Below, piece after piece: positions 7,514 to 64,000 of a stretch of 64,000 nt of DNA (position 1 is its first letter; every line of letters starts with the position of its first letter). This DNA comes from Tilletia caries. Its lineage: Eukaryota > Basidiomycota > Exobasidiomycetes > Tilletiales > Tilletiaceae. Below the pieces are notes generated by a model that saw only the letters and a list, made by a program, of their open reading frames with translations, was not told where the DNA came from and made no database searches. Position numbers and translations under genes: made by a program. The stretch lies in the NCBI GenBank assembly GCA_032718865.1, contig JALUTQ010000005.1, forward strand, positions 1,550,001-1,614,000, read 5' to 3'.

Positions 7514-9908
7514 ATGGTTGGTTCTTCGCACACTCCCTCCACCATAGCCCACAGCATAGGCATCAGGGAAAGGACTGCGAGACCGATGGCACGGCCACGC
7601 TTCACGCAGCGCACGTTGGGGCATTGCTGCTCATCGCCGCGCAACTGCTGTCAGTGCGTGCGTGACCATGGCCGACTCATTCCCGTGTTCTTTGTGAGTC
7701 GCTAGGAATGCCTAAGCAAAGTGTACGACGGGAGCTCATCAGGCCCCTTGACCTCCCCTAGATTCTCGCCCTGATGATGTATGCCTACCTCATCCTCACC
7801 TTCTCCGTCTCGCTCTCCTACACCCTGTTCCAACGGCGAAACATCTTCTCGGCCCTCGTCCAGCTCGTCCTTACGCATGTCCTGGTCGGCGGCGCAGCGC
7901 TCTCCTTGCTCATCGCAGTCTTCCGAGATCCGGGCTCGCCCAAAGCGACGGGGACAGACAACTTCGGCGGCATTGAAGAGGGGAGAGCGGGTGGAGGAGG
8001 AGATGCGGCTTCTACCCGTGAGGGAGCTGAAGCAGGAGGAGGACGGGCCGGGTTTCGCAATGCCGGCGAGGCACAGGACGATGGCGATCGAGCCCCGCTG
8101 CTGTCCTCCGCCGACGCAGAAGCAGGCGACGACGAAGGCGAGGGCATCTCCCTACACAACCGCCGAGGCGGCAGTGGCTCCCGATCAGGAGCCTCACATA
8201 CGGCTCCGCTGCTCACATCTGGGCCTTCCAGCTTGCTACCTGGACAACCGCAACTGCCCGCGCGGACGAGCCGAGACCAACTGGCGGACCAGCTCTCCCT
8301 TGCTCAGCGCCTTGCGCCAGCGTCTACACTTGCACAACCTCGTGTTGATACCGGCGATGCATTCGGGGCGTCCACCACATCAGGATCGCGTCAAGCTCAA
8401 GACTCGTCCGCTCCAGCAACTACAACGGCGACAGCGCCAGCCTCTTCGCGCGGCTCCAAGCGTACGCGCTCAGGATCAACTGCCAAAGTCTCGGATCTTA
8501 TGGTAAAGAGCACGGGCGAAGCAAGGTGGTGCAACAAGTGCTCTGGACCGAAGCCCGATCGGGCGCATCACTGCTCGACGTGCGGAGTCTGTGTGCTGAG
8601 GGTGAGTCCCTCTCTTCAAGAGATGCAGCACAGCATTGAACTGACGCGGCTCTTTTTTCACTTAAATTGATTGCAGATGGACCACCACTGCCCATGGCTC
8701 GGAGGTTGCATCGGTCTGCGGAATCACAAGGCCTTCTTTCTCTTTTTGTCGTATACCGCGGCGGTTTGCATATATGCGGGCCAAGAGACCGCGCGGGCCT
8801 TCGTACGATGGATCAACGAGGAGAACAACGTGAGTCAGCAGGATTCCAGTGTTGACTTTCGTTGCGCAGCATGAACTGAACGCGGTCTGAGCAAAACGCA
8901 GGGGAGCGAAACAACGCCAGTCACCTGGGCTGTTTTGTTGCTCATTTCTTTCATTGTGAGTACTCCAAAATGATAGTCTGGGCTCTGCGCTGTGGGTGCT
9001 GATCGTCAACCCGCTCTCTCACAGTTCGGAATGGCCCTCATTCCCTTTTCCGTCTATCATTGCTACTTGATCTGCAAGAACAAGACCACAATCGAGAGTA
9101 TGGAGGGCGGTGGGCGGGTCCGTTTGCCATCAGAACGTATGCGAAATGGTAGCGGCTCAAGACCGTCTCGCGTCAATGTCCAAGACCGACTGCGACAGAT
9201 TGTGGGCAACCCGCAGCTTGGCTTTCCTCCCCGCCCGCTTTCCCACCTGGACGATCAAGATGCAGCTCAGCGGTGGAGAGCGGACGAGGAGTTGACACGT
9301 GAGGAGCGGAAAGCACTCAAGAAGGCGAACAAACTTAATCTGTACGACGTAGGGTGGAAGAGGAACTGGCGGATGATAATGGGCCGGACCTGGTGGGAGT
9401 GGTTCCTGCCGTGGGGTGAACCGTGAGTGCTGTCTCAGGAAGATTGAGCTTCAAGCTCGTCTGCTGACATTCCTGTTGTTTTCTTGGTGATTCCAGTGAG
9501 GCCGACGGCTTCTACTGGGACATTAACACTCGCGCTCTGGAAGAACTTGACCGGATCACCATGAGAATACGAACGGGACAAGATCCGCCGCCCGCGCGAA
9601 GAAATGATGTCGACATCAATGACTACAGTGATGATGACGACGATAACACAAATAATCACAGAGCGGGGCGGAACCATCAAGAGCACGATCCAACTCCAGA
9701 CGGGATGGGTCTCATTCGGGTGGACGATACCATGACCCCGTCTGACCAACGAAGAGCGGCTGCACATGGACGAGTCCCAGCTCTACCGGGACAGGGCCGC
9801 GACGAAGGTGATCGGTGGGAGAGCGGACACGGCGAGGCAGAATGGGGGCCTGCGCCAAAGCGTGACTTTGTCCTGTACGATGTCGATTCGGACGAGGAGG
9901 CTTCTTAA
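7514..9908 (+). CDS. DHHC-type palmitoyltransferase (Pfa3-like)
   Basis: Transfers palmitate to cysteines of membrane-associated proteins; a polytopic enzyme of the endomembrane/vacuolar system. Six exons with consistent phases: 7514-7693, 7762-8601, 8677-8829, 8902-8955, 9025-9422, 9497-9908; predicted 678 aa. Visible marks: two N-terminal membrane segments (exon 1 end into exon 2), the DPG motif (FRDPGSP), a Cys-rich domain starting [18 protein letters not shown] and ending [12 protein letters not shown] with the catalytic DHHC split from its Cys-rich front by an intron at 8602-8676, two further membrane segments, and the TTxE motif (KTTIESM). Odd features are a roughly 230-residue Ser/Gly/Ala-rich insertion between the second membrane segment and the Cys-rich domain, and an acidic C-tail. 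The start is chosen because it supplies the CCQC segment before the first membrane helix. Pfa3 versus another fungal DHHC clade is not settled. Confidence 0.9.
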
Positions 9909-11483: not shown

Positions 11484-12711
11484 CACCACCGGCTGGTCTC
11501 AAGTGGTTCTGAAGTATTGGAGGCTTTAGACTTGGGGAAGAGTTGGGGAATGATTGCGGAATAGTGGGGATGAGGAACTCAGAGAAGGCTTATGACTGAA
11601 GTATGGAACAACTCTACTGCATGTAATGCTTCATGAAGACGTCCAGACTGAGAGTTCGGGAAGAGAAAGGTGTAAAATAGTTCGGGAAGACGTCCCAAAG
11701 AGCCGCTCCAGCGCACCCACAGAAAAACCCTGGCACGTGACCTTGATAGAGTGATCATTCTTTGATCATCGCACGTTCGAGCAGCAGCCCACACCCCACA
11801 CCCAGGATCCTCCTCCAAAACGACGCGACCCGGCGTTGCGAGAATTTCTGCCTTAGAGAATTTTCACCTTCTCACCCACTCACCCCGACCTTCTTCCACA
11901 GCCTCAGACCTCCGCTCACCATTCTTCATCCCCCATCCCGTACACCCGGGCAATAGGATGCGCATGCGCATCAGCACCCCAGTATCAGTGTCCTCCCTGC
12001 GCTCGCCCACAGCAGCACCAGCTTCTTCCCTAGCCCACCCACTCCCATCCGCACCCGCATCCGCCATCTGACTGACACTATCACTGATTTTTTCACACCG
12101 CGTCACCGCCGTCTGACTACTCACTCATCCTTCTCTTTTTCCAGAGCAGTCAGCACAGCTTGCCTTCGTCCTCTTCTCCTCCGGCGTTGACTGCTGACTT
12201 CCCTCTTCCCTTCGCCTCCGCTGATTTTTCTTCACACACCCTGTTCTCATGCGCAGATTTTTCTCTTTTTCTCGCACATTTTTTTTCCCCTCCCCCCTCT
12301 CACCTCTGCGCTCCGTCCTCGTCCCGCCTACAGTCACAGCCCTCGAACAGACACGAACGCGCTGTGCCGGCTGGTTCAGTTCTCCTCTATCCTTGTTTTT
12401 GTTATGTATAATGTATGAGTAGTCATTCACCGCATCGCGCATCGATCGATTCCTGCATACATATTTGTGGGCGTGATCGTGAAAGGAGGAGATCCTGAAA
12501 GTGGGGTTTCATAGGGACAGACACCTGAGAAGACTTGACCTAACCATTGCCCAAGCATTTGGGTAAGTCTTGGGGAAGTATTTGAGTCAACTATTTGGGA
12601 AGTCTTCCCCATGCGGCGATCGCCTTCGGGAAGACTTTGACTCTCGAGGCGGCCAATCATTGGGGAAGACTTGCCCCAACTATTGTGAAGACTTAAGAAC
12701 AACCGGTGGTG
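11484..12711. mobile_element. Element C: 1.2-kb TA-inserting DNA element
   Basis: Left end CACCACCGGCTGGTCTCAAG (11484-11503) pairs with the right end reading CACCACCGGTTGTTCTTAAG on the other strand (to 12711): three mismatches in 20. TA flanks both ends (11482-83 and 12712-13). Removing C restores a continuous 22-bp unit of element B, which is strong evidence for the boundaries. The right side (12530-12690) and, more weakly, the left side contain degenerate units of AAGTCTTCCCCAAT type. No transposase is visible; the interior is T/C rich. Probably a Tc1/mariner-type non-autonomous element. Confidence 0.8.
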
Positions 12712-12850
12712 TAAACATATGCAACTGACCCTCTAACTATATGCAACTGGCCCTCTTACTATATGCAACTGACCCTGTAAACATAGGCAACTGGCCCTCT
12801 AACTATATGCAACTAACCCTGTAAACATACGCAACTGGCCCTCCAGTACA
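12712..12850 (-). repeat. Left terminal unit array of element B, inner part
   Basis: Six further ~22-bp units, alternately GCAACTGACCC and GCAACTGGCCC, in the same orientation as the array at 11301-11483. The spacer alternates between GTAAACATA and CTAACTATA, a possible two-unit higher-order period of 44 bp. Confidence 0.85.
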
Positions 12851-12990
12851 CCCGTAAACCTCAACATCTCAAGCATCACTGGACGCTACCTGAGAGGTAT
12901 GCTCATGGCGAGCTCATAGAGCCTTTCAGACTGAAGTTTGAACCAGAGAATAGGGCGTGGTAAGGGAAAAAAGAATGGCAGAGGCCCGGT

Positions 12991-13350
12991 TGTGCTGGCA
13001 AGTAGCCAGTAATCGGTGATGCCGTTTTCCCCATTTCTCTTTCTCGATTCTCTTTCTCTATGACTGCTGATTCCGATCCGATCCGACCCGACTCTGACAC
13101 GTGGTTTCCACTCCAGCGCCTCACAAACGTTACGCAACGTGCCATTTTCTTCCTGTCTTCTTCTTCTTCTTCTCATCACTCGCCACAGCGGCTTCTCTCT
13201 CTTCTCCGCCTCGGCTATTTAAGCCACTGTGTCTCATTTCCCCCTCTTGTAATTAGTCCGACACTGCATACTTGTTTCATCTCAGTTCTCTCCGAACACA
13301 GTCCTTAGTGAAACCTAGGTGATTAGACTATCTCGGCCTGTGTTCGCACA
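12991..13350 (+). repeat. 5' LTR of outer retrotransposon (360 bp)
   Basis: Starts TGTGCTGGCAAG and ends GTGTTCGCACA (TG...CA ends). A TATA-like CTATTTAAG near 13215 is the likely core promoter for the + strand transcript. Near-identical to 26737-27096. Confidence 0.95.
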
Positions 13351-14551: not shown

Positions 14552-14943
14552 TGTGCTAGTATGGACTCTGCTCGGCTCTCCCTTTCTGATGCTGCGTTCT
14601 CATTCTCGTTCTCACTCCTCTCCGCCATTCCGTTCCGTTCCGATCCGCTTCCGTTCCCAGTCCATATTCGATTCCACTCCTCGTCGATGACACGGAATCG
14701 TTGCGCAACGACTCGTCACTCCTTCACTCCCTCCTCGCTCTCCATCTTTCCGACGATCCCCAATAGTCACTCCCGCTCCAAACAAGCTGGCTCTAGGTAT
14801 ATAACGACTCGATGTACTTAGTAGTTCTCTCTGAATCGAGAAATCCTTCCCACAATCTTCTCTCGTATTTACTGGGGTTCCAATACCTCCTCAAGACTAG
14901 CTCCAGGTTAGTTCTTCTTTATTATCGACCCAGCTTCAATACA
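14552..14943 (+). repeat. 5' LTR of inner retrotransposon (392 bp)
   Basis: Starts TGTGCTAGTATGG and ends TCAATACA. TATA box GGTATATAAC at about 14797. Four transitions separate it from the 3' copy. Confidence 0.95.
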
Positions 14944-15027
14944 TGGTGATGAGAGTTCTTCACTGACTCACCGAAACACGGACGTCTGTGATCGAATCCA
15001 GTTAATACGCCCAACTCCAGCTACGCC

Positions 15028-16603
15028 ATGACCGCTCCCAAGGGCACCAAAGGAAAAGGCCCGGCCCAGTCCGACCCTCCTTCCATCTCGGCCGCCACGG
15101 CTCAAGCACCTCTCACCGCTGCTATCCACCAGGCTCCTCACGAGCCCCGTCCTTCTACAAGCACCGCCATCCCCGAGGGAGGTTCCTCTCCTCTCACGCC
15201 ACTCGAATCCGCCGCTGGGGACGAACCCCCTCCGGCCGCTCTCCCCTCTGCCGCGTCGCCAAACGACGCTGTGCTGATGATGCTGCTGGGCACCGTCAAC
15301 GACATCAGCCGCCGCCTCACTGGCTTGGAGAATCGATCGAGCCAAGACTCACCGGTCGCTTCTGCTGCTCGCCAGACTGCTGTCGCGCCGGAGGCATCGT
15401 TGCCACCCGTCACCCCGGTTCGTTCCACCAACCTCCCTTCTCACATGACCCCGGCCGTCATGTTCCCACACATGACGCCGGCGGAGCAAGATGGTCTGTC
15501 CTCGGGTCTGCGTAGCATGGGGATCCGGTTCGAAGACTTCGTCAACATGGTCCACGGTCGAGCATCAACGCCGCACCAAGACTCACCGTTGCTTGCCCGC
15601 TCTCGCTCGACGGCCTTCCCCACCTCGTCCAATGACTTGCCCCCTTCGACGTCGACCGAGTTCCGTTGTGCCGACCCGAGTTTATCGGCAGGTTCCATGG
15701 TGATCCAACTCACCTGGAAAACTTCCTGAGTCGGGTTCGCGCTGTGGCGAGGTCGAACACCAACCCGGAGTGGGTCATGTCGGTCGTGCGTACGCTGCCA
15801 ATCGTCATGGAGGACGATGCCGCTGTCTGGCATGCCGGTCTCACCGATGAGGAGGCCGCGAGCATGACGACGTTGACGGTCTGGCAAGACAAGCTCCGCG
15901 AGGCCTTCCCCGTCAACCGGTACGAGCAGCGCCGCAACGCTCGCAATCGGCAGTGGAACCCTGCGGATGAAGGCGCTTCAGCGTACTTCTTCTACAAGCT
16001 CCGTCTTCTCCGTGGTGCATACGGTCCCGACCAAAACGAGACGAACCTCACTCACGACATCTTGGACGGCCTCCCTCCCGAGTTCCGCGTCATGCTCCGT
16101 CTCCCTCGCCACAACGTCTCGCTCAACGACGTTCGGCAGGAGATCAGTGAGTGGAAACTATGTGGAGAGAGCTCCATCGTCAGTCTCGCTCGTTGCCGTC
16201 GCCATCCACGGCACGTACCTCTGGTGGATCACCCCCGGGTCGAGACAGTCGCCTGTTCCCGGCCTCGACGTTGTACGCGGTCGCTCCCAGCACCGTCACG
16301 GCACCTGCTGCTGGACCTCGACCGACTGGCGCCTACGTTCCGTTGGCGGTTTCGTACGATCCTGGCCGCATCATTCCGGCCACGGCAACCCAGCCTCGGA
16401 AGTACCGTCGCCCCGACAACAACAAGGTCATCGACCTTGACCGAGCTTGCGACCGGTGTGGAGAACTCCACTTCAACTTCGAGCACAACCATCTGCAGGT
16501 CAAGGCGCAAGCTCGTGTTGTCAATGCTGAGGACGACTACCCTGAGGCCGAGGACGAGACGGCTGAGGACTCACAGCCTTTTGGGGAGTCCGTAATGACG
16601 TAA
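15028..16603 (+). pseudogene. Inner element gag, broken by two frameshifts
   Basis: Starts at ATG 15028 after an 84-nt leader. The reading frame has to shift once between about 15636 and 15668 and again near 16150; each fits loss of one base, the second in a G run at GAGTGGAAAC. Blocks in order: Pro/Ser-rich N-terminus, capsid-like core (CRPEFIGRFHGDP to about 16150), and the CCHH motif CDRCGELHFNFEH. The outer element's gag supports each shift by alignment. A frame-restoring explanation by splicing is not evident at either site. Sequencing error in homopolymers is an alternative. Confidence 0.8.
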
Positions 16604-16629
16604 AACTATCGGCGGATGCTCCCTCCCAG

Positions 16630-19600
16630 GCACCGCCTCCACCACCCCTCCCTCCCGAGGTACCACACTCGCCTCCTCCGCCAACGAAGGTCGCATCTGT
16701 GGGCGGGAAGGAAATCACTGCTGATTCAGCGCTGGCACCGCTGAAAGAGGAGGAACAGATCCCTCCTATCCCCACCGACCCGGCCACCAGTCTTTATCTC
16801 GATCGCCGGCCCCACTTCTTCCACATGAAGAAGGCATCGGTTGACAAGGGTTCCAAACCTCTTGCATCCGAGACGATCCGACACGGCAGGGTCGAGGAGC
16901 TCCCCACGTCCACTGCTACTGGGACGGGCTCCGGATACAAGCGTCATGTACCTCTCACCTTGAAGCTTCGATTGAATGACACAACCGCATCCCCTCTCTC
17001 TTCTCTGCTTGATACCGGCGCCTCGTTGTCGATCATCGATGCTAAGTTGTTGGAGAAGCTTGGTGGTCAGTCACAAGGCGACGGCATGATGGTACACGGC
17101 CTCGGGAACATGCGCACCTTGGGATGGACGACGATTACATTCTTCATCGAGGCCCGCGACCCTCAAGGTCACGCTCTTCACCTTGAATGCCGGCAGGACT
17201 TCCACGTCCTCCCCTCATTCTCCCCGGGTCTCTGCCTCGGCCTCGACTTCATCACCACTCACGATGTCGTCTTGATGTCTTCCAAGGGCAAGGCTTCCGT
17301 TGGTCGCTTCATCTTCTCCATCACAGAAGAAGTCTCGGGACCATACTCGTCGAAGCCCGAGATCCACGCGGCTGACGACGTCGAGTTGCCGGCCAACATG
17401 TACACCTGGGTGCCGGTCTACGCGGGCTGTCTTGCTCCCGGCGTCGATTACACTGTTCACCCGCGGATGTCGGTCAGCGAAGATGACACCGTCCAATTGG
17501 CCGGCCCTACTGGGTATCTTACTCACCGGTCTCGGCGTCACATCCTGCTCGGAAACTTCAGTACCTCTGCGTACTTGCTGCAGAAGGGAACCATCGTTGC
17601 CGATGCGTTGAGCGCTCGCCTCGGTGATATGGTCAAGGACGGTGGGGATGCCTTCGTGTTGGGCCCGGCTGTTGTGTCGTCTCCGTCGCCTCGGGTCTTC
17701 ACATCGTCGTCTATGGCAGAGCCGGTGAACCCGTTCGAGGACGATGCTGACGACCTTGCCTGCTCCTCTCTTGCTAGAGACGCGGAGACTGTCTTGGTCG
17801 ATGGTCATTTCCGCGTCGGCGTCGATGAGTCCGGTTCGCCCCCGTCTCAGATTGTTGCGGTGCTGAGGGGGCATACCGATGCCTTCGCTTTGGATGGTCG
17901 CCCGGGGCGAATCCAGAACGGAGAGGAGATGGGCATTGAGTTGGTACCGGGAGCGGAGTTGCGTCCCGAGGCTCCTCGTCGGGCGATTCCGGAGAAGCGT
18001 CAGGCGATGGACGCGGCTATTGACCAGTTGCTTGAATGGGACGTCATTGAGCCCTCCAATAGCCCCGTCTCCTTTCCGGTCTTGATGGTCCGCCAACGCG
18101 ACAAGTGGCGTTTCTGCGTCGATTATCGACAGCTGAACACCGCCACTGTCTCCGACCGGTACCCGCTTCCAACGATCGACTCGATTTTCCAGACGCTGGT
18201 GGGAAAAAGGGTTTTCAGTTCCTTGGACGCGATCCGGGGGTACCATCAGATGGGAGTAAAGGAGACTGACCGTTGGAAGACGGCTTTTGTCTGCCACCGA
18301 GGACTTTTCCAATATCGTACCGTCCCGTTCGGCCTCAAGAACGCGCCCAGCGTTTTCCAACGGCTGATGGATCGTATTCTTGGATCCCTCCGTTGGCAAC
18401 AGGCGATAGTCTATATCGATGACATCGTCGTTGCCACGACCACCCTCGACGAACACACCCAGGCTTTGGACACCCTCTTGCGTCGAGCTTCACTCGCGGG
18501 TCTGAAGTTCAGCCCCAGCAAGTGTACCTTCGCTGTGCCATCGTTGGTCCTTCTCGGACGAAAGGTGTCAGGTGCTGGGGTCTCGGTCTGGCAGGAACGT
18601 GCGAAGGCGGTCAGTGATCTCTCCCGGCCCACTACGCTACGAGAGTTGTACCACGTACTTGGGCTTTTCGGCTATTATCGCGCCTTTATCGACCAGTATG
18701 CCGCCATCGCCGCCCCCTTGACGTCGTTGACCAAAGGATGGCGGTACGAGGCCGATGCGACCGGTCGATATCGATTGATCAACGTCGAAGGGAAGTCCGT
18801 CGCTGCCGAACGCGTTGTGATTGCTTGGGGAGAGGACCAGCAACACAGTTTCGACTCGTTGAAGAAGGCGATCGCCAATCCTCCTGTGCTCGCGCACCCG
18901 GATTCGACGCGCCCCTTCGTCTTGTATGTCGACGCCAGCAAGGATGCCTTTGCGGCGGTCCTTCACCAGGTGTATGACGAGCCCTCGGTGCCGCAGCCCC
19001 AATCTTTCACGGCCGCGGCCTTCCACCCCGCTCCGATTTCCTTGCTTCCTCCAACGGTAGCTCGTGAACGATGGGCGGCGTGGTTGCGCTCGGATCGGTT
19101 CTTCGCCCCTCTGATCCATCGGCTCGAGAAGGATGGCACCGATGACGTTTGGGCGTTGCGCGAGGGTTTGCTGGTTCGCCGACTGGATGACCGTCTGGCT
19201 TTGCCTGAAGCCGCAATTCCGTCAGTTATGAAGTCAGAACATGATGGACGGGGACACTTCGGTTTCCTCAAGACTTACCTTTCGGTGTCCCGCAACTATT
19301 GGCGACCCGGGCTGTCGGTCGCGGTCCGTTCGTGGGTGAAGCATTGTGCTGTATGCCTCCGCACCAAGCGGACGCCGAAGGTCGGAGAACTGGATGTCGA
19401 TCATGACCCGCAGTTCCCGTTCGAGTGGATCAGCATTGACCTGCTCCTCGGTCTGCCAAAGACCAGGTCCGGAAACGATGCCGTCCTCGTCATGTTGGAC
19501 GTCTTCTCCCGCATGGTCCTGCTGCACCCCTGTCCTAGTACCGTCACGGCCGAGGGCATTGCTGCCATCGTGAGCGACCGTATCCTGCGGCTCGGATGGC

Positions 19601-20915
19601 GCCCTCGTCGCTTCGTCTCGGGCTCGGAGGCTCGCGTCTCGGGCTCCGTGATGGCATCATTGGCCCAGTCCCTGAATGCTGATCTCACTCCTTCCCCGCC
19701 GCATCACCAACAGGCCAACTCTGTTGAACGCGCGATTCAGACGGTTCAGCATGTCTTACAGTCCATGGGCACAGCAGGTCACACTCACTGGGATCGCCGT
19801 CTCGTTCCGACTGTCGAGCTAGCCATCAACTCCACGCCGTCGATGGTCTCGGGTTTCCGACCCTTCGACCTCGTCTTCGTGTGTCATCCTGAGCGGCCCA
19901 TGTCGTCTTCGACGCGGCCGAGCATGAGGGCGTGTCCTCCTTTGACGAACGCCTTGTCGCTGCCGAGGAGCGCCTTCATGATGCGCGCGTGGCCATCGAT
20001 GCCGCTCGTCGGGACCAGAAGCGTCGGTATGACCGTCGTCGGCGCGAGTTGCCCCAGTTGCGTGAAGGGGACTTGGTCTTCGTTCGCTTAGTCGATCGGC
20101 CAATGCCGGGCCTGATCCGCAGCAAGCTCGATGCGCGCAAGGCCGGTCCCTATCCCGTCCGGACTGTGCTCTCGCCGCACCGAGTTGTGCTGGAGCTTCC
20201 TGCGGACGCGAGCATGGGACCGGAGTTCAGCGTTGAGCAACTAGATCTGGTGCCTCGCTCCCCTGATCCGTTTGCCACTCACCGGCTTGGTTCTAGATCT
20301 CTCGGTCCCATGGCGGATGACCAGGACGAACGTTCTGATGCTGTTCTGGATGGGGAACAGAGTGACAGGGACGCGTCAGCTTCCGATGATCTGCTTCTGG
20401 GCGCGGCCGACGGAACTCACCTGGCCGAGGATGTCGTCCTTCCTCCTCGAGCTCGACGGCCCCCTAACGCGTTGCGTCAGTTTGACGTGGGAACGATCAC
20501 GGTCGTCAACACCGAGGGGCTGCAAGAGGCGCTCCGGGGTCCTATCTTTCGGCGGCGAACGCTGGAGATAGATGGCGTCAGTATCGAGCTCCGTGAACGG
20601 CCGGTAGCTTTCATCTCCCGACTCACCTCGCCTGCCGAGAAGAAGATGGTTGCCGCAGAGCTCGAGCTCTGTTGTCTTGCGTGGGCGTTCTCCCGCTTCA
20701 CGCACCTGCTGGAGGGCGCGCAAGTTACCGTCGTCACCGACCATGCGCCGTTGGGCCCGATGTTGTCGTCGACGTCAGCCATTCCTTACGGGCCGACGAT
20801 TAGCCGTTGCCGTGCGTTCGTGATGCCTCACGTGTCCAATATGCGCTTCGTCCATCGCGCCGGCCACACGCACACGAACGTCGATGCGCTTTCACGCCTT
20901 CCGCCTCCGACTTGA
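16630..20915 (+). pseudogene. Inner element pol: protease, RT, RNase H front half, integrase, RNase H rear half (broken)
   Basis: Runs in one frame to about 19890 and then needs a 1-nt shift (a C run before CATGTCGTC) to continue to TGA 20915. Domains: aspartic protease LLDTGAS near 17010; reverse transcriptase with YIDDIVVA near 18412; RNase H first strand LYVDASKDAFAAV near 18925; integrase zinc finger H-H-C-C (19240-19360), DDE core from 19438; RNase H remainder RPVAFISR to VDALSRLP (20598-20905). The integrase second Asp is replaced: GGC (Gly) at 19621-19623, where the outer element has GAC. The N-terminus is uncertain because the frame is open upstream of any ATG. Confidence 0.85.
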
Positions 20916-20955
20916 CTGGTCCGGGACGCCCAGCCTGCTTTGGGGGGGGGGGGGA

Positions 20956-21347
20956 TGTGCTAGTATGGACTCTGCTCGGCTCTCCCTTTCTGATGCTGCG
21001 TTCTCATTCTCGTTCTCACTCCTCTCCGCCATTCCGTTCCGTTCCGATCCGCTTCCGTTCCCAGTCCATATTCGATTCCACTCCTCGTCGATGACACGGA
21101 ATCGTTGCGCAACGACTCGTCACTCCTTCACTCCCTCCTCGCTCTCCATCTTTCCGACGATCCCCAATAGTCACTCCCGCTCCAAACAAGCTGGCTCTAG
21201 GTATATAACGACTCGATGTACTTAGTAGTTCTCTCTAAATCGAGAAATCCTTCCCACAATCTTCTTTCGTATTTACTGGGGTTCCAATACCTCCTCAAGA
21301 CTAGCTCCAGATTAGTTCTTCTTTATTATCGACCCAGCTTCGATACA
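20956..21347 (+). repeat. 3' LTR of inner retrotransposon (392 bp)
   Basis: Ends TCGATACA and is followed by TCGCC. It is preceded by a run of 13 G and one A, the polypurine tract. Confidence 0.95.
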
Positions 21348-22490: not shown

Positions 22491-25400
22491 CACTCCACGG
22501 AGAATGGCCTTGCGCCCTCCATGTCCAATTCACACGGTCAAGTGACCTCAGATCATTCTGATTCAACCACGACGTCTGCGCCTGTGCCTGATGACTCGGG
22601 CATCCTGTTCTTGGTCGACCGGCCTATCCTGTCCACTCCACGCACCTTGCATCCGAATGAGTCAGTTCCCCCGTTGAGCCAACCCAAACGGGCCTTCGGG
22701 AACATCGTCGCTCTTCCTCGCCAGGTCGCTGCTGGCACGGGACAAGGCTATCGGTCCCACATTCCGTTGACCACTCACATTCGGGTGAATGATACGGACG
22801 GGCGCGCGCTCTCGACCCTCGTCGACACAGGAGCTACCCTGTCCTGCATTGACGCCTCGCTCCTTCAACGTATGGGTGGTCGTCCGACCGGCTCCCCCAT
22901 GAGGGTGCAGGGGATTGGATCGTCACACACCCTCGGCTGGGCGACGCTTCCGGTGTTTCTCCATGCGACCGACCCGCACGGTCAGCACGTCCACCTCGAG
23001 TTCCACCAGGACTTCCATGTCCTTCCGACGTTTCCTCCCGGGCTGTGCCTCGGCCTCGATTTCATCGTGGGATATGATGTCTCGCTTTCCCCGACTCGAG
23101 GCCGTGGACGCATCGGTCGGTACACGTTCCCGGTTCACGAGAAGCTGGCCGGGCCGTACGCCAAGGACGCGGAATTATGCGTGGCCACGGACATCACGGT
23201 GCCGGCCGGGTTCCAGACCTGGGTGCCCGTCGACGCGTCGTGTCTTGCACCGGGGGTGGATTACACTATCACTCCTCGCTTGTCAGTCACGCCTGATGAG
23301 ACCGTACGTTTGGCAGGACCCGTCGGGTTACTCACCCATGGCACTCGTCAACACGTGTTGCTGGGCAACTACGGTCCGACTTCCTTTCTGCTGGAACGAG
23401 GGACTGTTGTCGCTGACGCAGTGGGAGCCAGGATCGGCGACCAGCATTCCCAGTCCGCGCAAGCCTTCGTGGCCGGGGTTCCATACGCGGCGGAACTGCC
23501 ACCTCCGCCCGCTGTCCTCCCCGAGGACTCCGAGGACGCCGCTCTGCCCCTTGACGTTTTCGATGGCATCGACGTCGCCGAGAGCACGCTCACGCAGGAT
23601 GCTGTCACCGTCCTCGTTGACGACTCCTTCCGCGTTGGCATCACGCCTGAGGGCCAGCCGCACGCTTCCGTGGTGTCTCTCCTTCGTTCGCACCACGACG
23701 CATTCGCTCTTGACGGTCGGCCGGGGCGGATCGAGGATCACGACATGACCATCAACCTCCTTCCCGATGCCGTCCTTCCGCCTGAGCCCCCTCGCCGCGC
23801 CAGCCCGGAGAAGCGGGCGGCCATGGACTCTGCGATCGAGCAGCTCCTTGATTGGCAAGTAATCGAGCCATCTCAGAGCCCCGTCTCCTTCCCGGTCGTC
23901 ATGGTGAAGCAGAATGGGAAATGGCGGTTATGTGTCGATTACCGACAGCTCAACTCGAAGACCGTCCCGGACCGTTACCCCCTCCCCACAATCGACGCCA
24001 TCTTCCAGACGCTCACCGGGAAGAAATGGTTCAGCTCCCTCGACGCTATCCGGGGGTACCATCAACTCGGTGTTGCGGCTGAGGATCGATGGAAGACGGC
24101 TTTCGTGTGCCATCGGGGCCTCTACCAATATAAACGTGTCCCCTTCGGCCTTCGCAACGCCCCGGCGATCTTCCAACGTCTCATGGATAAGGTCCTCGGA
24201 AGTCTTCGCTGGCAGCAGGCGGTGGTCTACATTGATGACGCTGTCATCGCCACCGACACATTGGAGGAGCACAACTCCGCACTCGTCACCCTGCTCACCA
24301 ATGCGATAGCGGTCGGGCTCAAGTTCAGCCCAGCGAAATGCACTTTCGCCGTCCCCAGCCTTACCCTCCTCGGTCGCAAGGTCTCGGGCGCCGGCGTCGC
24401 GGTGTGGGCCGATCGTGCTCAGGCAGTTCAGGCTCTGGCTCGTCCTACAACGCTGCAAGAGCTCTACCACACGCTCGGATTGTTCGGGTACTACAGGGCC
24501 TTCATCCACAAGTTCGCGGAGAAGGCTGCCCCGTTGACTCGACTTCTCAAGGGATGGAAGTACGAGTCAGTCGACGGTCAAACTCGGCTCGTGAACACCG
24601 AGGGGAAGGCGGTATCGGCGGGTCGCGTTCCGCTGGCATGGGGAACCGAACAACAAGTCAGCTTCGAGGCTCTGCGTGCCGCTGTCGCAAATCCGCCGGT
24701 CCTGGCTCACCCAGACCCATCTCGACCATACATCCTCTACACCGATGCATCAAAGGACGCCCTTGCTGCTATCCTTCACCAAGTTTCGACCGCTCACACT
24801 CCGGTCGGGGTTCCTGATGCCGCCGCTCGTGTAAACACTCTCTCGGTCCCTCACTTGCCTGCGGATTTTGCTCGGGAACGGTGGAATGTTTGGCTTTCGG
24901 AGGATCGGCATTTCGGACCCATCCTGCGTTCCATTCGGTCCGACCCGGACTCGGTTCCCGACTGGCTGCTCCGCGAGGACGTCTTGGTGCGCCGAAGCGA
25001 TGATCGGGTGGCGCTGCCGGCCGCCGGTCTGTCAACAGTGTTGAAGGGGATCCACGATGATGGTGGTCATTTTGGGTTCTGGAAGACGTTCTTGGCGGTC
25101 AGTCGTTACTTCTGGCGGCCCCAGCTCTCGACCGCCGTTCGGACCTGGGTGAAGCACTGCGACCTCTGCCGCCACACTAAGGCCGCTCCCAAGACCGGTA
25201 TGCTTGACATCTCCCAAGATCCGACGCTACCCTTCGATCACATCTCTCTGGACTTGATTTACGGGTTCCCTCGAGCTCGTTCGGGCAACGACGCCGCTCT
25301 TGTGATCCAAGACCTCTTCTCCCGCATGGTCTTGCTCGCGCCCTGTACGAAGGAGATCACCGCGGAAGGGGTCGCCGCCATCATCAGCGACCGAGTCCTC

Positions 25401-26765
25401 CGGTTCGGCTGGCGACCACGTCGCATCGTGTCGGACTCAGAGGCTCGTGTGTCTGGCTCGATCATGACGCAACTCTGTGCGTCTCTGGGCGCGGTCGGCA
25501 CCCCGTCCAGTCCGTACCATCAACAAGCGAACAGCGTCGAGCGCGCGGTTCAAACGGTGCAGCGCGTCCTTCAAGTCATGGCCTTGGACTCCAAAGCCCA
25601 TTGGGACCGACGGCTTCTTCCGGCAGTCGAATTGGCGATGAACGGGAGTCCGTCGACTGTGACCGGCCAGCGGCCTTTCGATCTCGTCTTCCTGAGCCAT
25701 CCGACAGTCGTCCACGCTGTGTTCGATGCGGATGAGCATCTCGGCGTCAGCTCGTTCTCGGAACGCCTGGCGGCTGCTCAGGATCGACTCGAGGAGGCTC
25801 GCAGTCACATTGTCGCTGCCCGGCAGGAGCAAAAGCGCCGATTTGACCAGCGTCGCGCGCGGCCTTCTTTGATCGTCCCCGGCATGCGCGCGTGGATCCG
25901 CCTCCGGGACCGACCCGTGGCTGGTGCCACTACCGACAAGCTGGACGCCCGAAAGCTCGGTCCTTTCCCCATTCTCGAGGTCGTCTCGGCTCACCGTGTC
26001 CGTCTCGATCTCCCCACCGGTCTCGACATCGATCCCGTGCTCAGTATTGAGCAGCTGGACCTCGAGCCCCTCGCCGACGATCCCTTTGCCGCCGACCGCG
26101 CCATTCCCTCCGTGCCGTCGCCCTCACCGTTCGTTCGCGAGGAGGATGTGTCGGTCCGTCCCGCCGATTCCTCGGCTTCCGTCGTCGTTGAGCCTGACGG
26201 GGATGCGGATGAGGGACCTCGCTTGCCGCCGCGCGTGAGACGCCCTCCGCTCGGCCTCCAGGACTTCCACCTGGCGACGGTTCGCGCTGCTCCTTCTCCT
26301 GCGCTACAGGACCTGCTTCTCGGCCCCCTGTTCAGGCCTCAAACGCTGCAGGAAGGGGATACGCTGCTCACGCTCACGGAGCGACCAGTCGCGTTCATCT
26401 CGCGTCTTACCTCCCCCGCCGAGTCCAAACTCGTGGCCGCCGAACTCGAACTGGTGTGTCTGGCCTGGGCATACCAGAAGTTCTCACACCTGCTCGAGGG
26501 TGTTATCACGACCATAGTCACGGACCACGCGCCCATGAAGAGGATGCTCCGGTCAACCAATTCCATTGCATACGGGCCAATAATCACTCGCTGCCGGGCC
26601 GTCATCATGCCTCACCTGGCCAACCTCCGGTTCGTTTACCGCCCGGGCCCCCGCCACACCAATGTGGACGCGCTCTCTCGGCTGCCAACAAATACTGTCG
26701 ACCAGGGACGGCCGACTTTGTTGGGGGGGGGGGGGATGTGCTGGCAAGTAGCCAGTAATCGGTGA
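22491..26765 (+). CDS. Outer element pol polyprotein with split RNase H (intact frame)
   Basis: Open from 22491 if spliced from gag, or from ATG 22521 (1414 codons). Residues counted from that ATG: aspartic protease LVDTGAT near 100; reverse transcriptase with YIDDAVIA near 570; first RNase H strand LYTDASKDALAAI with Asp 742; integrase zinc finger (H about 845-850, C about 879-882); DDE integrase with Asp about 910, Asp 972 (VSDSEAR) and Glu about 1004 (NSVERAV); a spacer; then RNase H rear half from RPVAFISR (about 1288), with ELEL Glu, VTDHAP Asp and VDALSR Asp (about 1382). The stop lies inside the 3' LTR. In ordinary Ty3 elements the whole RNase H precedes integrase. No chromodomain is seen. 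Confidence 0.9.
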   Translation, partial: HSTENGLAPSMSNSHGQVTSDHSDSTTTSAPVPDDSGILFLVDRPILSTPRTLHPNESVPPLSQPKRAFGNIVALPRQVAAGTGQGYRSHIPLTTHIRVNDTDGRALSTLVDTGATLSCIDASLLQRMGGRPTGSPMRVQGIGSSHTLGWATLPVFLHATDPHGQHVHLEFHQDFHVLPTFPPGLCLGLDFIVGYDVSLSPTRGRGRIGRYTFPVHEKLAGPYAKDAELCVATDITVPAGFQTWVPVDASCLAPGVDYTITPRLSVTPDETVRLAGPVGLLTHGTRQHVLLGNYGPTSFLLERGTVVADAVGARIGDQHSQSAQAFVAGVPYAAELPPPPAVLPEDSEDAALPLDVFDGIDVAESTLTQDAVTVLVDDSFRVGITPEGQPHASVVSLLRSHHDAFALDGRPGRIEDHDMTINLLPDAVLPPEPPRRASPEKRAAMDSAIEQLLDWQVIEPSQSPVSFPVVMVKQNGKWRLCVDYRQLNSKTVPDRYPLPTIDAIFQTLTGKKWFSSLDAIRGYHQLGVAAEDRWKTAFVCHRGLYQYKRVPFGLRNAPAIFQRLMDKVLGSLRWQQAVVYIDDAVIATDTLEEHNSALVTLLTNAIAVGLKFSPAKCTFAVPSLTLLGRKVSGAGVAVWADRAQAVQALARPTTLQELYHTLGLFGYYRAFIHKFAEKAAPLTRLLKGWKYESVDGQTRLVNTEGKAVSAGRVPLAWGTEQQVSFEALRAAVANPPVLAHPDPSRPYILYTDASKDALAAILHQVSTAHTPVGVPDAAARVNTLSVPHLPADFARERWNVWLSEDRHFGPILRSIRSDPDSVPDWLLREDVLVRRSDDRVALPAAGLSTVLKGIHDDGGHFGFWKTFLAVSRYFWRPQLSTAVRTWVKHCDLCRHTKAAPKTGMLDISQDPTLPFDHISLDLIYGFPRARSGNDAALVIQDLFSRMVLLAPCTKEITAEGVAAIISDRVLRFGWRPRRIVSDSEARVSGSIMTQLCASLGAVGTPSSPYHQQANSVERAVQTVQRVLQVMALDSKAHWDRRLLPAVELAMNGSPSTVTGQRPFDLVFLSHPTVVHAVFDADEHLGVSSFSERLAAAQDRLEEARSHIVAARQEQKRRFDQRRARPSLIVPGMRAWIRLRDRPVAGATTDKLDARKLGPFPILEVVSAHRVRLDLPTGLDIDPVLSIEQLDLEPLADDPFAADRAIPSVPSPSPFVREEDVSVRPADSSASVVVEPDGDADEGPRLPPRVRRPPLGLQDFHLATVRAAPSPALQDLLLGPLFRPQTLQEGDTLLTLTERPVAFISRLTSPAESKLVAAELELVCLAWAYQKFSHLLEGVITTIVTDHAPMKRMLRSTNSIAYGPIITRCRAVIMPHLANLRFVYRPGPRHTNVDALSRLPTNTVDQGRPTLLGGGGMCWQVASNR

Positions 26766-27096
26766 TGCCGTTTTCCCCATTTCTCTTTCTCGATTCTCTT
26801 TCTCTATGACTGCTGATTCCGATCCGATCCGACCCGACTCTGACACGTGGTTTCCACTCCAGCGCCTCACAAACGTTACGCAACGTGCCATTTTCTTCCT
26901 TTCTTCTTCTTCTTCTTCTCATCACTCGCCACAGCGGCTTCTCTCTCTTCTCCGCCTCGGCTATTTAAGCCACTGTGTCTCATTTCCCCCTCTTGTAATT
27001 AGTCCGACACTGCATACTTGTTTCATCTCAGTTCTCTCCGAACACAGTCCTTAGTGAAAGCTAGGTGATTAGACTATCTCGGCCTGTGTTCGCACA
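26737..27096 (+). repeat. 3' LTR of outer retrotransposon (360 bp)
   Basis: Same ends as the 5' LTR and followed by the duplication CCGGT. The pol stop codon lies 29 bp inside it. A G13-A polypurine tract precedes it. Confidence 0.95.
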
Positions 27097-27640: not shown

Positions 27641-27775
27641 GTACCGGGGTCAGTTGCATATGTTACAGGGCCAGTTGCATATGTTTACAGGGCCAGTTGC
27701 ATATATCTATAGGGCCAGTTGCATATGTTTACAGGGCCAATTGCATTTATTTAGACAAGTGATCATGTTATTGCC
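27641..27775 (+). repeat. Right unit array of element B, inner part
   Basis: Five ~22-bp units of the type AGGGCCAGTTGCATATG in the opposite sense to the left array. It closes with AAGTGATCATGTTATTGC, which reads on the other strand as GCAATAACATGATCAC and resembles the terminal unit at 11301 (GCAAGATACCTGATCAC). Confidence 0.8.
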
Positions 27776-31545: not shown

Positions 31546-31732
31546 ACATTTATGTGCGGTCGACTTGATCCTTGTTAGTTATACTGAGGGTCAGTTGCAT
31601 ATGTTTCGAGGGCCAGTTGCATATGTTTACAGGGCCAACTGACTTTTGAAAAGGGCCAACTGTATTTACCACCAGGGCAGCGCATTATTATAGGGCGAGA
31701 TGCATTTATGACAGGGCATCTCACCATTTTCC
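31546..31732 (+). repeat. Right terminal unit array of element B, outer part
   Basis: Units GGGTCAGTTGCATATG and GGGCCAGTTGCATATG, then increasingly diverged units (GGGCCAACTG, GGGCAGCGC, GGGCGAGATG, GGGCATCTC) up to the end at 31732. The gradual decay from inner regular to outer diverged units mirrors the left end. Confidence 0.8.
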
Positions 31733-60040: not shown

Positions 60041-61799
60041 TTAACCCCAGATGTTCTGAGCGATGGCGCGGCGCGAGCCACCGAGGAGACCACCAAGGCC
60101 AACGAGGAGGTCACCGACGACGCCGAGGAGACCGGTGGTAGCGTCCTTGCCAACCGCGGAGCCCTTGAACTTGTTGTAGGCGGGGATCACACCGTCAGCC
60201 TTGATGGCAGTGAAGCAAGGGTCGTACTTGGAGGCCAGGGCCTTGTGGGGTCGGCCGATGAGGTCGTCGACGATGCTGAGAGCGTATGTGAGGTCCTTGT
60301 AGATGAACTTCAATTGAGTAGGGATGACCTGCGAGCAAGATAAGGAGCGTCAGCGTTTTGTACTCGTGCCATGTCTAGCAGCCGGAATTATCGCTATGAA
60401 CTCACCTGCTGAATAGAAGCCTGGTACAGGTAGCACGCAGTAGCGTCCTTGTTGTCGAGAAGGTTGGCCAGGTTGAGTGCGCCACCGGTAATGTCGGAAA
60501 CTTGGACACCAGCGAAGCTGTTGACCTTGCCGGTGTTGCCGCCGACGGAGAGGAGACGGGGGTCCTCAAGACCGGAGCGGACGAGGTTGGTAACAACGTC
60601 GGCGAGACCGAAGGGGGCATCGATGGGGCGGCGGAGCCAGTTCTTGGGGAAACGCTCGTGGCCGGGAGTGTACTTGAGCGTGCCGTTAGCACTGGAGGTT
60701 GAGAAAAGGAAGCAGAAGAATGTCTCAGCAAGCTTGAAACCTTGGCATCCGTCGAGCGAGTGGAAGAAGAAACTCACAGGCGCTGGTACGAGAAGAAGGG
60801 GAACAGGTTGGCGTCGTCGAGGTACTGACGGTTGTGGCCGGTTCCATCGTCGGTGTTGTTGCTCATGAAGTTAACGATGAAGTCGTGGGCCGCGGTAGTG
60901 ACGACGAGACCACCGAAAGCGGAGAAGAAGAAGTAACTACAGAAAGACGAAGACAATGATGGAGAAGTCAGAAGATGCGCAGCAGATGGTGTGGAACCGG
61001 AAGACAAAAAGACTCACGGGTTGGTGGAGATGGAGTGGTCGAAGCGGAGAGTGCGGTGCTTGGCGAGGACCTCGCGAGTGTAGGCATCCTCACCAGCCTT
61101 GTGGGGACCGGCAATGTCAACGAGCTGCTTGAAGAAAGCGGGCTGCGAGGTGTAGTCGTCGCCGTTGTTGGCGTAGTAGTCGGCGCGAGAGACGGAAGCA
61201 TCGCCCTCGTACACGTTGTGGGAGTTGATACCCTCTGGCTCACCGGCGAGCAAGTTGGAGACCGAGCCAAGGAGCGCCTTAGACTGGAAGGGACCGCCGA
61301 TGGACCAGGTGCCGTCGAGGATGTTGCCGGTGAAGACAACGGCGTAGGCGGACAGGACACCACCGAGCTCAGGTGAGATACCGTAAACTTGGGAGACGAC
61401 CTCGATGGCCTGGGTCAGACCAACAGTGCCGTCACGGTTGAAGTAGCCGTGGTTGGAGAGGACGTTGAGACCGGGGCAGGGACCGCGGATGTCACCGGGG
61501 CCGGGGGCCTTCCACTCGTGGTCGCCCTCAACGCTGACGTACTGAGCCTCGGCGTCGAAGAGCTTGCCGTTGGGGTCGATGATTGCGTCCTTGTCACGGG
61601 CAGAGAGGTTGGCGACGGCCTTCTCGAACTCGGCGCGGACCTTGGGCGAGAGGAGGTCGGTGATCTCACGAGTCACACCGGCCTCGAGCTGGATGGGCTG
61701 GCGAGCGGCGACCCACTTCTCGAAGGAGCCGAATGCTTGAGCGCTGCTGATGACCGAGAGACCGGCCGTGACGGCGGCGAGGGTGGCGGTGAACTTCAT
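60041..61799 (-). CDS. Secreted heme-thiolate peroxidase (chloroperoxidase / unspecific peroxygenase family)
   Basis: Four exons: 61799-61018, 60936-60778, 60691-60406, 60328-60041; 504 aa, phases consistent. Family enzymes use a Cys-ligated heme and hydrogen peroxide to halogenate, peroxidise or oxygenate substrates outside the cell. The N-terminus is a clear signal peptide ending near Ala 22. The proximal heme motif GPCPGLNVLSNHGYF carries the thiolate Cys at residue 107. EGDASVSRADYY downstream fits the region that holds the acid residue used to cleave peroxide. At 504 aa it is longer than typical short peroxygenases because of a C-terminal extension ending in a Gly/Leu/Val-rich stretch (LLGVVGDLLVGLGG). 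Start at 61799 is chosen for the signal peptide. A close paralogue lies at 63420. Confidence 0.93.
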
Positions 61800-63419: not shown

Positions 63420-63993
63420 TCAACCCCAGATGTTCTGGGCCATGGCGCGGCGAGAGCCACTGAGGAGACCACCAAGGCCACCAAGGAGGTCACCGACGAC
63501 GCCGAGGAGACCGGTGGTAGCGTCCTTGCCGACGACAGATCCCTTGAACTTCTTGTAAGCCCCGGGAACACCATCAGCGTGCACGGCCTCGAAGCACGGG
63601 TTGTACTTCGATGCCAGCGCCTTGTACGGTCGCCCGATAAGGTCGTTCACAACGCTGAGGGCGTAGGTGGTGTCCTTGTAGAGGAACTTGAGTTGCGTTG
63701 GCAGCAGCTGTTCGATGGTAGCTTGGTAGAGGAAGCATGCAGTGGCGTCCGAGTTGTTGAGCATGGTGAGCAGGTTGAGTGTTCCACCAGTGAGATCAGT
63801 GACCTGGATACCAGCGAAGGAGTTGACCTTGCCCGTGTTGCCACCAATGGAGAGGATGCGGGGGTCCTCCGCACCGATGCGAACAAGATTCCGGACAATG
63901 TCGGCGAGACCGAAGGGGGCGTCGATGGGGCGGCGGAGCCAGTTCTTGGGGAAACGCTCGTGGCCGGGAGTGTACTTCAGCGTGCCGTTAGCA
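63420..63993 (-). CDS. Second heme-thiolate peroxidase, C-terminal exon (gene runs off window end)
   Basis: Paralogue of the gene at 60041-61799. The visible exon covers the last ~190 residues, from the ANGTLKYTPGHERFPKNW block through YKDTTYALSVVNDLIGRPYK to the end SRRAMAQNIWG. Its acceptor (ACTAG before 63993) matches the second intron of the first copy, but the third intron of that copy (60329-60405) is absent here: the coding sequence is continuous at the equivalent point (ATIEQ-LLPTQ). The catalytic Cys region lies beyond the window. Tandem duplication in the same orientation is evident. Confidence 0.9.
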
Positions 63994-64000
63994 CTAGTGA

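Follow-up and report, generated by a model that had tools for sequence, protein, structure and literature searches.

A Ty3/Gypsy-type retrotransposon lineage of Tilletia and other fungi with an RNase H domain split around the integrase

Nested elements and their domain order

The window analysed here, a stretch of 64,000 nucleotides on contig JALUTQ010000005.1 of the Tilletia caries assembly GCA_032718865.1, contains two nested long terminal repeat (LTR) retrotransposons, in both of which the RNase H domain of the pol gene lies in two pieces on either side of the integrase (Table 1). The usual view of LTR elements is that the reverse transcriptase (RT) and the RNase H form a single continuous protein. 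Both elements show the marks of Ty3/Gypsy LTR retrotransposons, namely LTRs with TG...CA ends, a target-site duplication and a polypurine tract, the LTR ends and duplications having been read by eye from the flanks, and TGGTGATGAGAG, found directly 3' of the 5' LTR in both, occupies the position of a candidate primer-binding site. The outer LTR repeat (12988-13350 and 26734-27096) extends over 363 nt with 3 mismatches and the inner one over 393 nt with 4, and therefore both insertions look young. The polypurine tract before both 3' LTRs consists of about 13 G (26723-26736 and just before 20956).

The RT of the outer element is of the Ty3 type and lies upstream of the integrase. A first-pass annotation of this stretch had noticed that the RNase H begins with its catalytic Asp right after the RT and that the rest of the domain follows the integrase at the pol C-terminus, and both observations were borne out by Pfam profiles and by alignment to Ty3. 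In the outer pol, RVT_1 matches residues 473-628, RT_RNaseH_2 717-768 (model 1-52), Integrase_H2C2 848-898, rve 914-1010, SH3_Tf2-1 1135-1189 and, C-terminal to the integrase, RT_RNaseH 1297-1357 (model 30-90); the RNase H coordinates are those of the best stretches, as both models match twice and each fits both pieces partly. No complete RNase H was found between RT and integrase in this search of the translated frame; a contiguous RNase H at that place is usual in Ty3/Gypsy elements without being a group-defining trait. According to the Ty3 alignment, the N-terminal piece (N-part) holds strands 1 and 2 with Asp 752 (24744-24746), and the C-terminal piece (C-part) holds strand 3 onward with Glu 1320 (26448-26450), Asp 1345 (26523-26525) and Asp 1393 (26667-26669); which of the two Glu in the ELEL motif is catalytic was chosen by the Ty3 residue numbering, as we take it to be. 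The best solved match, the Ty3 protein (7q5b/4ol8), has one RNase H whose halves align to the two pieces, while each piece alone matches weakly. Two distances in the first-pass annotation had to be revised: a linker does precede the integrase, but it measures 58-59 residues to the integrase profile and not about 35, and the catalytic residues are widely separated, but the gap from Asp 752 to Glu 1320 amounts to 568 residues and not about 540.

The outer pol has neither an integrase upstream of the RT, as in Gmr1-like elements, nor two RNase H domains, as in the dual RNase H type, and for the chromodomain, which in chromoviruses follows the integrase, no Pfam match (Chromo) was obtained in the outer element at E<=1. 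Residues 228-317 of pol (about 23172-23441), situated between the protease and the RT, match a dUTPase weakly (E 0.1). Between RT and RNase H, KYESVDGQTRLVNTEGKAV... (pol about 689-716, about 24555-24638) seems to be extra compared with canonical elements and forms two short strands in the structural model described below.

In the inner element the RNase H is broken at the same point and the domain order is that of the outer element. The inner pol (16567-20915) is damaged, its first open reading frame (ORF) ending at 20091 and the second beginning at 19893, and in the integrase a Gly replaces the second catalytic Asp (VSGSEAR) despite LTRs that differ at just 4 of 393 positions.

Table 1. Features of the two nested elements (positions in the window)
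Feature	Position	Strand	Remarks
Outer element, 5' LTR	12991..13350	+	TG...CA ends; target-site duplication CCGGT
Outer element, 3' LTR	26737..27096	+	from repeat comparison
Outer pol, single open frame	22491..26765	+	protease, RT, RNase H N-part, integrase, RNase H C-part
Outer RT core	23865..24542	+	pol 459-684; YIDD at 24228
Outer RNase H N-part	24639..24788	+	beta1 and beta2, first catalytic Asp 752; last residues LHQ
Outer linker 1	24789..24962	+	fast-evolving
Outer integrase	24963..26057	+	H2C2, catalytic core with D921, D982, E1017, SH3 domain
Outer linker 2	26076..26345	+	fast-evolving; middle with pLDDT <50
Outer RNase H C-part	26379..26684	+	beta3 onward; Glu 1320, Asp 1345, Asp 1393
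Outer poly-G polypurine tract	26723..26736	+	5' of 3' LTR, within final pol codons
Inner element, nested in outer	14552..21347	+	LTRs 14552-14943 and 20956-21347; target-site duplication TCGCC
Inner RNase H N-part core	18925..18972	+	YVDASKDAFAAVLHQV
Inner RNase H C-part	20595..20897	+	ERPVAFI... VTDHAP... VDALSR; in second ORF

Recurrence in the host genome and in other fungi

When the host Tilletia assembly (38.1 Mb, 40 contigs) was searched with both pieces, 104 of the 108 first pieces among the matches listed had a second piece 1422-4146 nt downstream, at 1300-2300 nt in 101 of the 104 pairs and in no pair closer than 300 nt or contiguous. The pairing used 119 of 150 and 108 of 150 rows of the two match lists, and each row dropped by eye either matched a canonical family or was a second fragment of one place; the absence of contiguous pairs concerns the split family only. 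The best 150 places for PF17917 fall into two sharp classes by hand count, 78 starting at model positions 1-16 and 69 at 27-30, the other three rows being fragments that start at 22-28. Of ten sequences retrieved from the first class, nine have both RNase H pieces adjoining and before the integrase; in the tenth (L039) the N-part was unmatched. In Tilletia genomes, ordinary Ty3 families coexist with split families in the same genome, the latter being many and diverged (L003/L010 to L032, P0001-P0133), with 47-94% identity of the pol parts. One genomic copy (L010) carries an apparent extra insertion of about 570 nt within its C-part (about 1246-1819).

Three protein searches, in each of which 7982-7994 candidates were scored, yielded 277 listed proteins, the first two being represented by the best 120 of 251 and 120 of 122 matches. 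The closest named proteins among the matches listed belong to Tilletia controversa, T. laevis and T. caries, and by these matches the host is a smut-type basidiomycete. Using profiles made from the pieces, 147 of the 277 were classed as split, 90 as canonical, 11 as integrase-first (integrase upstream of the RT) and 29 as incomplete or weak. The two RNase H pieces are 473-621 residues apart in the 147 split proteins versus 1-53 residues in the 101 contiguous ones (90 in canonical order and 11 integrase-first). Tilletia names are attached to 122 of the split proteins; the other 25 include Pseudozyma flocculosa PFL1_01527 (P0137), Ustilago trichophora UTRI_05171 (P0138) and Ustilago sp. UG-2017a UDID_18167 (P0213), and 22 with only the source labels jgi, ena or lgn. 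Independent confirmation came from Pfam, which recovered the split order in P0135, P0137, P0138, P0142 and P0197 and showed the RNase H of P0211 to be contiguous. The split order is carried by fungi of two classes, Exobasidiomycetes and Ustilaginomycetes, and it is a widespread lineage trait and not a trait of one element; scans of IMG/VR with two alignments returned no relative.

The point of the break can be read by comparison with P0211, where canonical LHQ-EDLEGV-ERP stands against LHQ-insert-ERP in the split proteins. Just before ERP, several relatives (among them P0137, P0138 and P0142) have nothing resembling strands 1 and 2; the C-part is without an evident substitute for these strands or for the first Asp and would need the N-part. 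A chromodomain lies between integrase and C-part in P0142 and P0197 (Chromo above the cut-off), falls below the cut-off in P0135 and is not listed for P0137 and P0138, and PF00385 is precomputed in 17 of the 25 non-Tilletia split proteins (P0142, P0189-P0195, P0197-P0200, P0202-P0206). The chromodomain may have been lost in Tilletia.

Conservation, phylogeny and predicted fold

Two alignments were used, in which the window element was combined with 88 of 120 listed proteins (including P0078 and P0100, later classed as incomplete or weak) and with 99 of the 147 split proteins, respectively. In the 100 rows of the latter the catalytic Asp, Glu, Asp and Asp, the D-E-D-D set of type I RNase H, are retained in 98, 100, 97 and 95, and in its 25 non-Tilletia rows in 25, 25, 23 and 22. 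Both RNase H pieces are under purifying selection like the RT. The median ratio of non-synonymous to synonymous substitution rates (dN/dS) is close to 0.1 in the RT (0.104), the N-part (0.098) and the C-part (0.108) and somewhat higher in the integrase (0.141) and the SH3 domain (0.192), as against 0.35 and 0.39 in linkers 1 and 2; these values, from the window element and seven open-frame genomic copies, are rough, many pairs being saturated at silent sites.

In trees of RT (66 rows), integrase (68) and RNase H (68), the split rows form one branch each time, with support in the Shimodaira-Hasegawa-like approximate likelihood ratio test (SH-aLRT) of 88, 99 and 89. The rows were chosen by hand (26-27 split, 37-38 canonical and 3 integrase-first), and the trees are quick ones computed without bootstrap. 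P0211, which combines a contiguous RNase H with a chromodomain, adjoins the split branch in the RT and RNase H trees and is placed elsewhere, among canonical rows, in the integrase tree, where the split integrases group with chromodomain elements. The trees fit a putative single origin from an ordinary Ty3-type element, and the split order may have arisen in the manner of a circular permutation, through duplication of the RNase H-integrase region and subsequent complementary deletions. Acquisition of the integrase from a foreign element was also considered, as the outer integrase scores best against L038 (94 bits, versus 47 for L042 and 43 for L033); however, the scores are close (82 and 73) for the divergent member L029, and the split integrases form one branch beside 20 canonical rows.

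An AlphaFold2 model built from split sequences alone places both pieces in one RNase H on the RT, and Ty3 RT-RNase H can be aligned to it over 382 of 390 residues at 2.1 A, with a range that spans across the integrase. Stretches of both linkers are predicted with a local distance difference test score (pLDDT) below 50. As the model shares its joint fold with Ty3, the integrase would be an insertion in the beta2-beta3 loop. An earlier model from the 89 rows of the first alignment was worse (pLDDT 69, predicted template modelling score (pTM) 0.39); its structure matches were not counted, as integrases filled the VIA list, and neither were the Foldseek alignments to RT-RNase H chains (653-686 columns), in which the integrase core may be matched to RNase H, a caution that extends to long Foldseek rows of the better model. 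The top covariation diagonal between beta2 and beta3 (i+j=1203) is identical in the split and canonical sets; this signal is weak, with relatedness uncontrolled, and is not used as proof.

Interpretation and known systems

We consider it very probable that both pieces together adopt a single Ty3-like RNase H fold on the RT, with the integrase looped out, the simpler of the two versions offered in the first-pass annotation. The N-part with beta1, beta2 and the first catalytic Asp would be fused to the RT, and the C-part with beta3 to beta5, the helices, the Glu and two Asp would form the C-terminus of Pol, so that the whole integrase, followed in many relatives by the chromodomain, would sit in the beta2-beta3 loop. 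An insertion in this loop can spare the sheet, and two long, flexible linkers could let the integrase hang outside. The two parts would fold together in cis within the polyprotein, and any cut by the protease in the linkers would come later, leaving a nicked but working enzyme. The suggestion that a single active site is assembled from two distant parts is supported by the complementary, conserved catalytic set, by purifying selection and by the AlphaFold2 model, in which the pieces unite, and RNase H catalytic activity may be presumed. Computation shows the domain order and its conservation, one branch in three trees, the catalytic residues, the purifying selection and a predicted joint fold. 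The split arrangement is a genuine variation on the Ty3/Gypsy plan, probably of long standing and probably functional.

Several points weigh against this interpretation. The case rests on computation throughout, i.e., on sequence comparison and a predicted model. The pTM of the better model is just 0.52, and the matches listed for the earlier one are no test of the RNase H. AlphaFold2 was trained on RNase H folds and very likely on Ty3 RT, and the assembly may therefore be partly prior; moreover, it was judged by alignment range, known from first and last residues only. Covariation between the pieces is weak (effective number of sequences 37). The branch support in the quick RT and RNase H trees lies below the 95 mark, and P0211, the nearest contiguous row, is on a long branch, which makes its placement unsure.

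One alternative is cleavage. In Ty3, RT-RNase H is cleaved from the integrase. It is conceivable, although we would rather bet against it, that the element's protease cuts both linkers, and that the RT with the N-part and the small C-part then form the RNase H as separate chains, with the integrase set free. Both linkers are indeed long, variable and fast-evolving, with the low-pLDDT stretches described above, but no protease site was identified and no sign of cleavage occurring was seen. Cleavage after folding is indistinguishable from the looped-out arrangement in the tests run, and the two readings are not exclusive. It is somewhat doubtful that the RNase H is a naturally split enzyme which requires translation through the integrase to the end of Pol and a meeting of two protease products; if it were, RNase H would be gated by completeness and maturation of the polyprotein, and equal numbers of RT, RNase H and integrase would be produced.

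The pieces could also be leftovers, either of a dead RNase H or, for the C-part, of an additional RNase H acquired at the C-terminal end, given that other elements have dual RNase H domains with a decayed first copy (PMC5348765, in the part available). We regard this as improbable, since the pieces join at one profile break (about position 52 of RT_RNaseH_2 and about 30 of RT_RNaseH, which is one loop), all four catalytic residues are retained, purifying selection acts on both pieces, and the best-scoring canonical Tilletia families are the same for RT, N-part and C-part (L033-L035/L042, with L036 tying for the outer N-part). Splicing of RNA (or protein) that removes the integrase in some molecules and yields a normal contiguous RT-RNase H was prompted by the GT at the break and was rejected as very improbable. 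A splice-donor-like CAG|GT is present at 17 of 27 genomic places, the outer element itself having CAA|GT, but the continuation GT[AG]NGT occurs at 0 of 27 and GT is missing at 4 of 27, the V whose codon supplies the GT is found in just 64 of 89 and 53 of 100 alignment rows, an acceptor AG has no fixed place in the junctions compared, and none of the 104 genomic pairs is without an integrase-sized gap, though spliced RNA could be copied back. Local rearrangement or misassembly, raised in the first-pass annotation, has a negligible probability: nothing was found in its favour, and it is refuted by the same order in the inner element, at 104 places of the assembly and in proteins from other genera, assemblies and sources.

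With Ty3/Gypsy elements (Metaviridae, PR-RT-RH-IN) the split elements have in common the LTRs, the protease, the RT, the RNase H profile with its catalytic set and the integrase with H2C2, core and SH3 domain, whereas the RNase H of the former is contiguous between RT and integrase; the nearest contiguous relatives are P0211 and the Tilletia families L033/L042. A changed pol order within Ty3/Gypsy is also seen in Gmr1-like elements, which have the integrase before the RT (PMC8220671, PMC3601003, as far as available in part). The 11 integrase-first proteins among the 277 are presumably Gmr1 elements, and in contrast to the split elements their RNase H is in one piece. RNase H is duplicated in retroviruses, Tat, Chronos and Archon, the older copy having decayed in the last three (available part of PMC5348765); both types are altered relative to Ty3, but the dual elements possess two domains, while the split elements have one catalytic set distributed over two pieces. 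An RNase H fold is likewise interrupted in the P element and related DNA transposases, in which an insertion domain splits the RNase H-like catalytic domain between beta5 and alpha4 (part of PMC7776569). The site differs, being beta5/alpha4 of a DDE transposase there and beta2/beta3 of a retroelement RNase H, with a whole integrase inserted, here. A Tilletia genome paper tallies Gypsy elements without treating their domains in its available part (PMC9172201), the accessible portions of PMC2864245 and PMC8632968 contain nothing bearing on a split RNase H, and in the open-access literature, as far as its texts were accessible and with Repbase and GyDB outside the search, no account of a retroelement RNase H interrupted by the integrase was found.

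The lineage is of interest because a replication enzyme is seemingly built around the integrase. It provides a natural test case for domain insertion, for polyprotein folding before cutting and for the coupling of reverse transcription to integration, and it is a warning that classification of LTR elements by domain-order rules may misread the split lineage.

Neither a tRNA nor any Rfam family at the gathering score was detected in the window. Arrays of a 22-bp unit (GGGCCAGTTGCATAT...) flank the nested elements at 12688-12863, 27645-27770 and 31565-31668, in opposite orientation on the two sides, and the stretches 60043-60693 and 63422-63995 are 83% alike in direct orientation, perhaps representing a duplicated gene region.

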